Shown here: one piece after another, positions 20,036 through 22,495 of the stretch | Numbering within the stretch: position 1 is the first letter of the stretch | How the letters are laid out: every line of letters begins with the position of its first letter | NCBI GenBank assembly: GCA_943788865.1 | Contig: CALSRX010000004.1 | Location: forward strand, 1 to 64,000 | DNA length: 64,000 nucleotides | Reading direction: 5' to 3' | DNA from: an uncultured Polaribacter sp. | GTDB taxonomy: Bacteria > Bacteroidota > Bacteroidia > Flavobacteriales > Flavobacteriaceae | Notes under the pieces: generated by a model | Databases searched by the model: none | Seen by the model: the letters and a program-made list of their open reading frames with translations, nothing else | What the model was told of the DNA's origin: nothing | Translations under genes and position numbers: made by a program

Positions 20036-20156
20036 TTATTAGATTAAACCAAATGAAAAAAAATAGTCTAAGCATAGATATTCTAGTTAAAAACTAATAA
20101 TTTATTCTTATAACTGGTTGTCAAAAAAAAAATTTAAAACGAATAACTATTATAAA

Positions 20157-20534
20157 ATGAAAGCAAAATACTTTGTAATTACAATCCTATTTTTTATTGG
20201 AGCATTAACAGTTCAGGCTCAAAGAGGTGAGCGCCCTGATCCAAAAGCACAAGCAAAAACAAATGCTGATACTTGGCAAAAAGAATTTAGTTTATCTGAT
20301 GAACAAAGAACAAAAGTGTATGACCTTCTTATAAAGTCTGCAGAAGACAGAACTAAAAAAATGACTGAATTAAGATCAAGTGGGTATAGAGAAGGAATGC
20401 GTGAAGCTTTTACAAAACTTCAAGCAGAAACAGACAAAGGATTGAAAGCAATATTTACTGACGCTCAATGGGTAATGTACGAGAAATGGAAAAAAGAAAA
20501 CCCTCCAAGAAGAAGAGGAAGAGGAGGAAATTAA
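20157..20534 (+). CDS. Small secreted Spy/CpxP-like protein
   Basis: 125 residues from the ATG at 20157; the frame is open from a TTG at 20118, but the ATG starts a clean signal peptide, MKAKYFVITILFFIGALTVQAQ. The mature part is helical and highly charged, with the segment LSDEQRTKVYDLLIKSAEDR resembling the LTxxQ-type helices of Spy/CpxP periplasmic chaperones. It ends in a basic tail, RRRGRGGN. A periplasmic chaperone role is plausible but unproven. A strong terminator follows. Confidence 0.7.
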   Translation: MKAKYFVITILFFIGALTVQAQRGERPDPKAQAKTNADTWQKEFSLSDEQRTKVYDLLIKSAEDRTKKMTELRSSGYREGMREAFTKLQAETDKGLKAIFTDAQWVMYEKWKKENPPRRRGRGGN

Positions 20535-20552
20535 CAACCTCAGCAAATAGCA

Positions 20553-20583
20553 AAAAACCAACTCAAATGAGTTGGTTTTTTTA
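20553..20583 (+). terminator. Rho-independent terminator after the Spy-like gene
   Basis: AACCAACTC (20556-20564) pairs perfectly with GAGTTGGTT (20569-20577) around an AAAT loop, followed by a T-run. Confidence 0.85.
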
Positions 20584-20621
20584 TTTTGTTAAACTTGACT
20601 TTCTTAAAAAAACCCGCTAAC

Positions 20622-20677
20622 TTCGTTTAACGTCTGATAAAATGAATTAAAACTCACGTTATCATTATAGTTATGGG
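20622..20677 (+). repeat. Left end of a boxed single-gene unit
   Basis: Starts TTCGTTTAACG and ends GTTATGGG. The 11-bp start is the exact inverse complement of the last 11 bp of the right element (21340-21350). The 8-bp end is the inverse complement of its first 8 bp (21215-21222). GTTTAAC fits the RYYYAAC consensus of an integron attC site. Confidence 0.6.
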
Positions 20678-20820
20678 TAAGTTTAACAAACATAGCAGTT
20701 CAATGCAGGCTGAACACTTAAAGTGACAAACAAAAACGTGGAGACAAGAAAACCACTTAAAAAAACAGGGAGTATTCTGAAAATCCAAAAGAGTAAGGAC
20801 AAAATTAAAAAAATAACAAA

Positions 20821-21210
20821 ATGAAAAAATTATTGATTTTAGCAACCATGTTGCTTACGTTTGGGTTTGCGAATGCACAAAGAATGTATGATGGATCCGG
20901 CAAACAAATAGGTAGGGTAGATGGTGAACGTTACTATGATGGTTCGGGCAGGCAAATAGGAAGGGTTGATGCTCAAAGAATTTATGATGGGTCAGGCCGA
21001 CAAATAGGTAGAATTGATGGCAAAAGATTATATGATGGTTCAGGGAGACAAATGGGACGAATTGATGGTGATAGACTTTACGACAGTTCAGGAAGACAAA
21101 TTGGTAGAATTGATGGTGATAGAGTTTACGATGGTTCAGGAAGACAAATTGGAAGAGCTGACGGATTAAGAAGAATGCAAATTATTTTGTTCTTTTATTT
21201 TTATATGTAA
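20821..21210 (+). CDS. Secreted six-repeat YDGSGRQIGRIDG protein
   Basis: 129 residues. A signal peptide (MKKLLILATMLLTFGFANAQ) is followed by six exact-length 16-residue repeats covering residues 23-118 (nt 20887-21174). The consensus is Y-D-G-S-G-R-Q-I-G-R-I-D-G-D-R-L, and the last copy drifts. A short hydrophobic tail, MQIILFFYFYM, ends the protein. The repeat should form a small closed or solenoid beta structure; a similar Bacteroidota family is named '5-fold beta-flower protein' in some databases, from memory. Function unknown. The gene lies inside a unit bounded by perfect inverted repeats (20622-21350), unlike any other gene here. Confidence 0.85.
   Translation: MKKLLILATMLLTFGFANAQRMYDGSGKQIGRVDGERYYDGSGRQIGRVDAQRIYDGSGRQIGRIDGKRLYDGSGRQMGRIDGDRLYDSSGRQIGRIDGDRVYDGSGRQIGRADGLRRMQIILFFYFYM
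20887..21174 (+). repeat. Six tandem 48-bp coding repeats
   Basis: Each 48-bp unit encodes one 16-residue YDGSGRQIGR-type repeat. The DNA copies have diverged at synonymous positions, while the protein pattern is nearly constant, which suggests selection on the protein. Confidence 0.85.
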
Positions 21211-21214
21211 CCAG

Positions 21215-21350
21215 CCCATAACAACACATTTGCGAATATGGCGGGTTTAGTGGTAAATGAATTATCCTGCTTCTAATAAATATTAGCGATAAAATGAAAG
21301 ATACTGCTACTAAGTCCGCCACATCGCAAATCTACAAACCGTTAAACGAA
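21215..21350 (+). repeat. Right end of the boxed unit, attC-like hairpin
   Basis: Begins CCCATAAC and ends CGTTAAACGAA. An imperfect stem pairs 21229-21250 (TTTGCGAATATGGCGGG...) with 21310-21330 (...CCGCCACATCGCAAA), leaving unpaired bases as integron attC stems do. The terminal GTTAAAC fits the attC core GTTRRRY. It ends 6 bp before the stop end of the AlbA_2 gene. Confidence 0.6.
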
Positions 21351-21355
21351 CCTTA

Positions 21356-22495
21356 CTAATTATATTTCACCTTTCGTAAAACACGCATCGCTTCTTTATA
21401 CTTAATATACGTAGTTTTATCTGAAAGACTTTTAATGTATTCTTTTGCCTTTCGTAATTGAGTTGGCGCGTCTAAATACCCGTGTAAATAACAAATTAAA
21501 TAACTCGTTGGTAGTCTAGAAACATCTTCATATTCTGTAACCGAAAGTGCTTTTTTTGCAACTATCTTTTTTACAATTGCGTTATTATTGTTATAAATAT
21601 GCTTAATAATAACTTCATCAAAAGCAGGTGGTTTAAACAATAATTCATTTACAATATCGTGTTTGCCATTATCTTTAAAATGAATGATGGTTTTTTCTAA
21701 TGGATAATGCGTTTCGTTTTTATCAATTCCTAATAAAATATATTCTGTAATAATAAACGAATGTGAATTATAACTAATCTGTACTTCATCTAATGCAGAA
21801 AAAAACAATCGAACTTGCTCGTTAATCAATTCTATATCTACTCTAGAGAAAAATTCTTCTCCGTTTATAATCGACTTCTTTCCTGCCCAACACAACACAA
21901 ACTGCTCGTTAAAAACTTTGTATTGTGGACTGTATTCTTTTTTATGATTGTTGATAAAATCAAAAACACCGTTTAAGGTTAATTCAATATTGTTACTCGC
22001 ATTCTTCTCAATTGCTTCAACAATATCTTGGTTTGTGTTTTTGAGTTCAAAATTTCCTTTTGAAGGCATCGAATTACTACCTCGTCTAAAAAACACCGAA
22101 CCCTGTTTGTATTTCCATGCATTTTTTGAAAGAGATGTTATCGTGTTATTAGGAGAAATGGTAACCAAACCAATTACTTTATGACGGGGTAAAGTTGGAA
22201 AAGGAACATTTTCATATTGTATTTTTGGCGGATTTGTTAAATACGCATTTGCAAGATTCTGAATTTTACTATCATCAAAAAAATCGACACCAACAATTTT
22301 GTTTTCTCCGTCTTCAATTCCAATAACAACATAAGAATTGTTGTTTGGGTTTGAGTTAGATAACGCACAAATGTGTTTTATAAACTTGGCTTTGCCTTCT
22401 TTATTATCAAGAGATAACTTTTGCTTTTTATCATAAAAACTGTTCTCGTCATTATGAGACAACAGGTTTTTGATTAAAAGACGCTTATTTATCAT
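21356..22495 (-). CDS. AlbA_2 (Schlafen-type) domain protein
   Basis: 379 residues. The N-terminal ~140 residues fit the AlbA_2 domain: FYDKKQKLSLDNKEGKAKFIKHICALSN, then YVVIGIEDGENKIVGVDFFDD. These proteins are often annotated as ATP-binding or helix-turn-helix regulators, but no Walker motif is visible and the biochemical role is uncertain. Related AlbA_2/Schlafen proteins include some nucleases and defence genes, but nothing here proves that. It starts 1 nt after the SDR stop codon (TAACATG), so the two are co-translated. Confidence 0.75.
   Translation of the reverse strand: MINKRLLIKNLLSHNDENSFYDKKQKLSLDNKEGKAKFIKHICALSNSNPNNNSYVVIGIEDGENKIVGVDFFDDSKIQNLANAYLTNPPKIQYENVPFPTLPRHKVIGLVTISPNNTITSLSKNAWKYKQGSVFFRRGSNSMPSKGNFELKNTNQDIVEAIEKNASNNIELTLNGVFDFINNHKKEYSPQYKVFNEQFVLCWAGKKSIINGEEFFSRVDIELINEQVRLFFSALDEVQISYNSHSFIITEYILLGIDKNETHYPLEKTIIHFKDNGKHDIVNELLFKPPAFDEVIIKHIYNNNNAIVKKIVAKKALSVTEYEDVSRLPTSYLICYLHGYLDAPTQLRKAKEYIKSLSDKTTYIKYKEAMRVLRKVKYN

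Follow-up and report, generated by a model that had tools for sequence, protein, structure and literature searches.

Known integron systems

The closest described systems are the integron cassettes together with the sedentary chromosomal integrons of the Vibrio type, the CALINs and the genomic attG sites. The window, which is the whole stretch of 64,000 nucleotides analysed here from an uncultured Polaribacter sp., very probably contains an integron cassette captured at a stand-alone docking site, one of at least 12 such sites on which a single integrase would act in trans. With the integron cassettes and the Vibrio-type integrons this system shares one-gene cassettes, a cassette start of the GTTRRRY type, an R'' that ends in AAC, an imperfect attC hairpin, insertion between G and TT and, in genome G037, a long array beside the integrase. 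In contrast to the Vibrio-type integrons, the integrase lacks the IntI patch and is transcribed towards the array, and attI lies 3' of the gene. The system is an integron by its structural definition, and its integrase stands outside the IntI family as curated.

A CALIN is a cluster of at least two attC sites without an integrase. The window resembles the CALINs of IntegronFinder in having attC without an integrase nearby, but its docking site is a dedicated one with only one attC. The accessible text on attG sites (PMC12901181, citing Loot et al. 2024) likewise describes insertion outside the integron, with no local integrase; the recipient site described here, however, is conserved, forms a hairpin, carries a putative promoter and is present in many copies. 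In the accessible part of the IntegronFinder 2.0 survey, one complete integron is listed for the Bacteroidetes proper, that of Salinibacter ruber (PMC9024848). The corresponding part of an earlier survey records intI genes in the Bacteroidetes/Chlorobi group, only patch-bearing integrases having been kept (PMC2426708). The papers listed from the open-access literature, as far as their accessible text extends, yielded no description of this type of integron in Flavobacteriaceae, of HARP-recombinase fusions or of orphan attI platforms, which is weak as an argument from absence.

The unit in the window

The original prediction described a 729-base unit bounded by two nested pairs of perfect inverted repeats, with one gene inside and a bulged hairpin at the right end. 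All of these are present. The outer pair consists of TTCGTTTAACG (20622-20632) and CGTTAAACGAA (21340-21350), the inner pair of GTTATGGG (20670-20677) and CCCATAAC (21215-21222). The gene occupies 20821-21210 and encodes 129 aa, and the right end is a long bulged hairpin with a DNA fold z of -2.57. A search of the own genome found no second copy of the whole 729-base unit.

The window is rich in comparable nested pairs. It contains 26 perfect inverted pairs of 11 bp at distances of 600-900 nt, 822 inverted pairs of 10 bp at distances of 300-3000 nt, and 29 combinations in which an 8-bp pair is nested at similar spacing, counts in which overlapping registers of this AT-rich window are entered separately. 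The repeats by themselves were therefore rejected as evidence, being near the chance level. This level, and the position of the repeats at the borders of the gene, would suit a reading of them as UTR or terminator hairpins of the gene, or as the termini of a cargo-carrying MITE-like element. Because the repeats are unremarkable in an AT-rich window, the case rests on the comparison with relatives, from which the following features of the locus were derived.

20592 to 20670, forward strand: left-hand portion of the host docking site, comprising the promoter-like sequence, the R'' arm and the hairpin; match to model R1 at 20592-20674, 87.6 bits, E 1.4e-24, the window site being among the 11 used to build R1
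20595 to 20625, forward strand: promoter-like sequence of the docking site, with TTG at 20595-20597, 20 nt, and TAACTTCG at 20618-20625; alignment A1
20622 to 20631, forward strand: R''-like arm TTCGTTTAAC of the host site, which pairs with 21341-21350 in the empty site
20632 to 20669, forward strand: inner hairpin of the host site, TGATA ... TATCA; alignment A1 and folding of the homologous empty site in G037
20670 to 20677, forward strand: R' of the cassette, GTTATGGG; comparison of filled sites
20671 to 21341, forward strand: inserted gene cassette, 671 bp, with G^TT at both bounds; join test against empty sites and point of divergence from G020
20733 to 20804, forward strand: DUF805 RNA (RF03081) in the cassette leader; cmscan 65.2 bits, gathering score 51.1, E 1.1e-9
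20821 to 21210, forward strand: cassette gene, 129 aa, fivefold beta-flower repeat protein; open reading frame and Pfam PF21785 (Bflower_2), E 2.6e-29
21213 to 21350, forward strand: attC of the cassette, with R'' CCCATAAC at 21215-21222, an imperfect stem and then R' GTT at 21341; model R2, 98.9 bits, the window attC itself being included in this model
21341 to 21350, forward strand: right arm GTTAAACGAA of the host docking site; sequence and join test

The beta-flower repeat protein is probably secreted, as judged from a signal peptide recognised by eye. The hairpin at 20632-20669, the promoter-like sequence overlapping the left arm and the RF03081 RNA in the leader formed no part of the original prediction. 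The site in the window is bordered by an AlbA_2/DUF5929 gene. Genome G036 has three matches to this gene (C1:2172k, 2262k and 2264k; L052, L123), each of which adjoins a docking site, and the inserts in these sites differ.

Empty sites and exchange of inserts

The 58 genomes of the same genus were searched with positions 20040-21600 of the window. The left end was found at many loci, and the flanking genes recur in several species. In G020 the same locus has a left flank of 95% and a right flank of 88% identity and contains an insert of 776 bp, which has no similarity at E 1e-5 to the 671 bp inserted in the window. The two sequences agree at every position from the R'' arm to the GTT at 20670-20672 and diverge directly after the GTT.

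A predicted empty site was made by joining 20591-20670 of the window to 21342-21360, and it was compared with seven real empty sites picked by pattern. It aligns without gaps with the empty site of G037 over 94 nt at 93.6% identity and with that of G004 at 92%. Identities with the other sites are 88% (G040), 81% (G021), 80% (G013) and 74-75% (G026 and G034); gaps are needed for G040, G013, G026 and G034, the weakest alignments having one gap. When folded, the empty site of G037 forms an attC-like hairpin whose outer stem has 11 bp and whose inner stem has 6 bp; the DNA fold z is -4.76 over 81 nt and -5.48 when the site is trimmed to 60 nt. The join test, the divergence from G020 and the fold of the G037 empty site together identify the outer pair as the halves of a single host site and place the insert at 20671-21341. 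Clustering by flanks located docking sites at syntenic loci common to several species, where the starts of the inserts differ or the insert is missing. One such locus is recognised by its left flank in seven species and is empty in G026; another, recognised by its right flank, is found in six species and is empty in G040 and G013.

These comparisons bear on both forms of the reading in which the repeats belong to the gene or to a mobile element, and the chance that either is correct is practically negligible. The ends also flank other genes and lie at other loci, and empty sites exist; all three observations go against UTR elements, and the empty sites together with the replacement of the cassette rule out UTR hairpins. 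A MITE or transposon with cargo, which had been offered as an option at the outset, fails because the outer arms are part of the target site, the closest empty sites rejoin without gaps or duplication, and unrelated inserts occupy the same locus in different species, the same arms surrounding unrelated genes. The other option offered, a cassette of an integron-like system, is borne out by the empty sites, the replacement of the cassette and the presence of an attC with its R'' partner. Both ends had further been compared to attC sites; this holds for the right end, which contains the attC of the cassette, while the outer pair is the R'' and R' of a single host docking site that the insertion has split.

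Cassettes and attC sites

Model R1 has 114 matches in 30 of the 58 genus genomes (E 1e-3), from which 50 docking sites, mostly the strongest and not a random sample, were drawn for examination. By strict pattern six are empty, 20 have a distal GTTAAACGAA, the two in L134 sharing one distal arm so that this locus is counted twice, and 24 have neither or lack the GTT. A seventh empty site has GTTAAACTAA. The 24 sites outside the strict pattern are either variant or decayed, filled in another way, or truncated where the retrieved sequence ends, as is at least one site of L022. The longest open reading frame is in the forward direction in all 20 inserts. An exact 8-nt inner partner is found 110-135 nt before the outer right arm in 13 of the 20 filled sites; when the left arms were reshuffled 2000 times, the mean number of exact partners was 0.057 and the maximum 1. 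Seven of the 20 are without an exact R'' partner, and with one mismatch allowed the partner is found in 15, which leaves five without. The window has the exact partner, CCCATAAC, 126 nt before the distal arm.

The attC hairpin is about 125 nt long. Its stem comprises 15 pairs, of which 12 have changes on both sides among 12 sequences (eleven attCs of scattered sites and one of an orphan attI). Twelve of the 20 inserts terminate in an attC with a counterpart in a stretch of an integrase locus or an orphan attI, at 70-88% identity over at least 90 nt. The window attC is outside these 12; its match is with the C1:180k cassette, whose attC is 76% identical over 74 nt.

The DUF805 RNA occurs three times in the own genome (window 20733-20804, C1:180507-180575 and C3:17252-17321). 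All three copies are in cassette leaders and end just before the start codon, the end pair of the C3 cassette being imperfect. Cassettes may thus carry a ready-made translation leader. In the phylum the RNA is found in 57 of 296 genomes at E 1e-3, in 43 of them over the cut-off. As a mark of cassettes it was rejected: most of the 29 loci inspected by eye have no cassette start in the 220 nt upstream, L160 being a clear exception.

The docking site and its spread

The docking site is about 95 nt long and consists of a Bacteroidetes-type promoter sequence followed by an attC-like hairpin with the outer arms TTCGTTTAAC and GTTAAACGAA. Alignment A1 contains 11 sites over about 84 nt, with TTG, 20 nt and TAACTTCG upstream of and overlapping the R'' arm; L004 is the one site of the 11 without the TTG. 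The promoter consensus of Bacteroidetes is TTG...TAnnTTTG. The conserved element fits this consensus and is promoter-like by sequence, and the promoters of the docking sites may be active. Several sites directly follow a run of T that, by eye, resembles the terminator of a gene. In L066 and L072, attI is followed by a reversed sequence resembling the docking-site promoter and then by an inverted-repeat hairpin (CAAACTG...CAGTTTG in L066), which could represent a further, third type of site or else an antisense promoter.

Model R1 has matches in 27 of the 199 genomes of the family at E 1e-9, with up to 11 matches per genome. The promoter and hairpin sequence is kept in most of the 18 sites outside the genus that were inspected, L308 being deviant. 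A distant blastn search with the docking-site region (20586-20690) gave no match at E 1e-3 in either the plasmid or the phage collection.

The own genome has at least 12 hairpin docking sites, ten of them filled and two empty (C1:63k and C2:143k). They were located from eight R1 matches and from the surroundings of the attC matches, and more may exist; C2:189.6k (L314), whose site type is ambiguous, is outside this count. Two types of site occur, TTCGTTTAAC/GTTAAACGAA and TTCGCTAAC/GTTAGCGAA, and the empty site C2:143k carries ATTAGCGAA in place of GTTAGCGAA. In nine of the ten filled sites there is a single attC match, and an R'' partner stands at a distance of 117-145 nt from the end of the cassette; in the tenth, C4:277k, neither an R'' partner nor an attC match was found. 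In all ten the longest open reading frame runs forward. Six inserted open reading frames were scanned, and the genes include those for an SDR, a pirin, a PF00144 beta-lactamase-family serine hydrolase, DUF3050, DUF6090 and a cNMP-binding protein. A scattered cassette with a PF00144 beta-lactamase-family serine hydrolase gene lies at C2:206k (L321), the host being probably a marine flavobacterium. Two more cassettes (C1:180k and C2:39k) are in copies of the attI motif without an adjoining integrase.

The attC model R2 has 13 matches in the own genome at E 1e-3, three of which (the window, C2:125.5k and C1:181.0k) are matched by construction, since they belong to the model. One of the 13 is at the window locus. 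Only C3:16227 is close to the integrase, the other twelve lying elsewhere in the genome; the attCs are mostly single and in docking sites with a putative promoter, a layout that differs from that of the Vibrio-type integrons.

An off-target insertion into a genomic site of the attG type, as for the class 1 integrase, would make the recurrence of the site a coincidence or the effect of a common genomic motif. IntI1 is reported, in the accessible text, to use genomic attG sites (PMC12901181), and insertion at G^TT with no local integrase fits such an event. The recipient, however, is a conserved sequence of about 85 nt with a promoter-like part and a hairpin, found in 27 of the 199 family genomes at E 1e-9; it lies at syntenic loci in several species and is filled in ten of the 12 copies of the own genome, whereas attG sites are described in the same text as markedly divergent, in both sequence and structure, from the classical att sites (PMC12901181). 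Off-target insertion is for these reasons quite improbable.

The integrase, attI and cassette arrays

A tyrosine recombinase of 387 aa is encoded at C3:17515-18675 of the own genome, on a contig other than that of the window. The absence of an integrase nearby, as originally noted, thus applies to the window locus, which none adjoins, but not to the genome. The core and catalytic domain of the enzyme are related to those of IntI (TIGR02249; 2a3v), but it scores 201.4 bits against TIGR02249, below the curated cut-off of 265, lacks the patch and has an extra N-terminal domain. Its profile finds 2a3v at E 4e-50, archaeal XerA-like structures scoring better. Fifteen residues stand where IntI4 has 58, and the alignment with 2a3v omits residues 183-240. 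The residues R, K, H, R, H and Y are invariant and are presumably the catalytic ones. A relative at E 1e-50 is present in 45 of the 58 genus genomes and in 75 of 296 genomes of the phylum, the weaker of the phylum matches being partly general Xer proteins. Named relatives among the best 80 matches include Polaribacter, Tenacibaculum and others, and point to Polaribacter as the probable genus of the host. The Rfam Flavo-1 sRNA is found at L077 1343-1428, just upstream of the integrase gene of G008 (50.0 bits, gathering score 42).

The attI motif ATATAACnnGTT lies directly 3' of the integrase gene, on the same strand, in 27 of 28 genus loci (30 fetched loci minus L078, at a contig end, and L082, with a broken gene). 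Such an attI motif is also present in 67 of the 76 testable named loci from the best 80 matches of the scan. From the same 80 matches, an R'' partner was found in 37 of the 44 named loci with the attI motif and more than 1 kb of sequence, against 6.7 after reshuffling (maximum 13 of 300). A looser attI set, which includes other families of the phylum and, outside the genus, probably some false matches (e.g. L191, L194, L203 and L214), gave a partner in 27 of 53 loci against 3.3 (maximum 9). The sequence and layout of the attI next to the integrase differ from those of the scattered docking sites.

The first cassette of the integrase array in the own genome has ends that pair imperfectly (GTTTGCA and TGCCAAC). 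The array of G037 lies directly 3' of the integrase gene and spans 82.5 kb, in which at least 59 attCs, all on the strand of that gene, follow one another at a median spacing of 925 bp. It extends over C1:4172985-4258267, with its ends in L324 and L325, and is Vibrio-like in scale. From the attI 3' of the gene, the cassette arrays and the attCs matching those of the scattered inserts, it is concluded that the 387-aa recombinase is the integrase of an integron and that integrase arrays and scattered sites take up cassettes of the same kind.

The scattered sites could also be served by another recombinase, XerC/XerD or another integrase-like gene, with only the cassettes in common with the integron. 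The own genome has two more tyrosine recombinases that match TIGR02249 below the cut-off, at C1:86.5k and C1:335k (L016-L019), with open frames of 306 and 333 aa; they are likely XerC and XerD. A close relative of the integrase (E up to 1e-90) is encoded in 17 of the 20 genomes that have strong sites, compared with 16 of the 38 that lack them (Fisher p 0.002, kinship ignored). If G040 and G050, whose genes are broken, are scored as lacking the integrase, the first figure becomes 15 of 20 (p 0.026, kinship again ignored), so that five of the 20 genomes with strong sites (G004, G015 and G034, besides G040 and G050 with their broken genes) are without a close unbroken integrase, as a separate recombinase would allow. 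Sixteen genomes have a close integrase and no strong type I sites. Against a separate recombinase stand this association of the sites with the integrase, at either p value, and the related attCs (70-88%) and common GTTRRRY-type start in integrase arrays and scattered sites. Another recombinase at the scattered sites is therefore unlikely. The integrase itself would most likely act there, in view of the related attCs, the G^TT boundary and the co-occurrence of the sites and the integrase.

The N-terminal domain of the integrase

The extra N-terminal domain comprises about 85 aa, and its structure (residues 1-85) is predicted at pLDDT 87. A Foldseek search with these residues places the HARP domain of SMARCAL1 (4o66) at ranks 1-2 (E 0.043, probability 0.92) and archaeal XPB at ranks 4-7. 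In VIA-align, XPB reaches Z 6.7 with an rmsd of 1.7 over 57 residues, tied with folds of the eIF1 type at up to 7.0, all Z being under 8, and 4o66 is not among the 50 matches listed. Pfam HARP (PF07443) matches four of 27 members at E up to 1, the best at 6.6e-4, which is a weak match; the first member scores 13 bits against a gathering score of 25 bits. In a search with a profile of the domain, 4o66 comes third, at E 0.083, behind two other entries.

The predicted fold of residues 1-85 is thus like the HARP domain of SMARCAL1 (PF07443, 4o66) and the N-terminal domain of archaeal XPB, with the difference that it is here attached to a tyrosine recombinase and that the match in sequence is weak. 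The resemblance to the HARP/XPB fold appears weak by sequence and moderate by fold. Both HARP and XPB domains bind DNA that is forked or damaged. The model suggests that the N-terminal domain may replace the IntI patch in the reading of the folded attC.

Proposed mechanism and biological meaning

In the proposed mechanism, the integrase would recombine the folded attC of a cassette with the G^TT of a docking site, and its HARP/XPB-like N-terminal domain would help it to bind the folded attC. Such site-specific insertion would place a single cassette beside the promoter of the docking site. Each scattered site is either empty or filled, with the insert oriented such that the promoter of the site would transcribe the gene, and one integrase, encoded beside its own attI, would fill and empty all the scattered sites in trans.

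Whether the Bacteroidota have an integron lineage of their own is an evenly balanced question. Such a lineage would be defined by a patch-less, Xer-like integrase with a HARP/XPB-like domain, and its distributed form in the Flavobacteriaceae would have, in addition to an array or in its place, up to 12 promoter-bearing sites with one exchangeable, expressed cassette each, served in trans. If the present account holds, patch-based searches would overlook an integron system of a large phylum. In array integrons mainly the cassettes near the promoter are expressed. The scattered layout would lift this limit of the array, since each captured gene sits beside a putative promoter. The HARP-like domain, in turn, suggests a second way in which a tyrosine recombinase may recognise folded single-stranded DNA.
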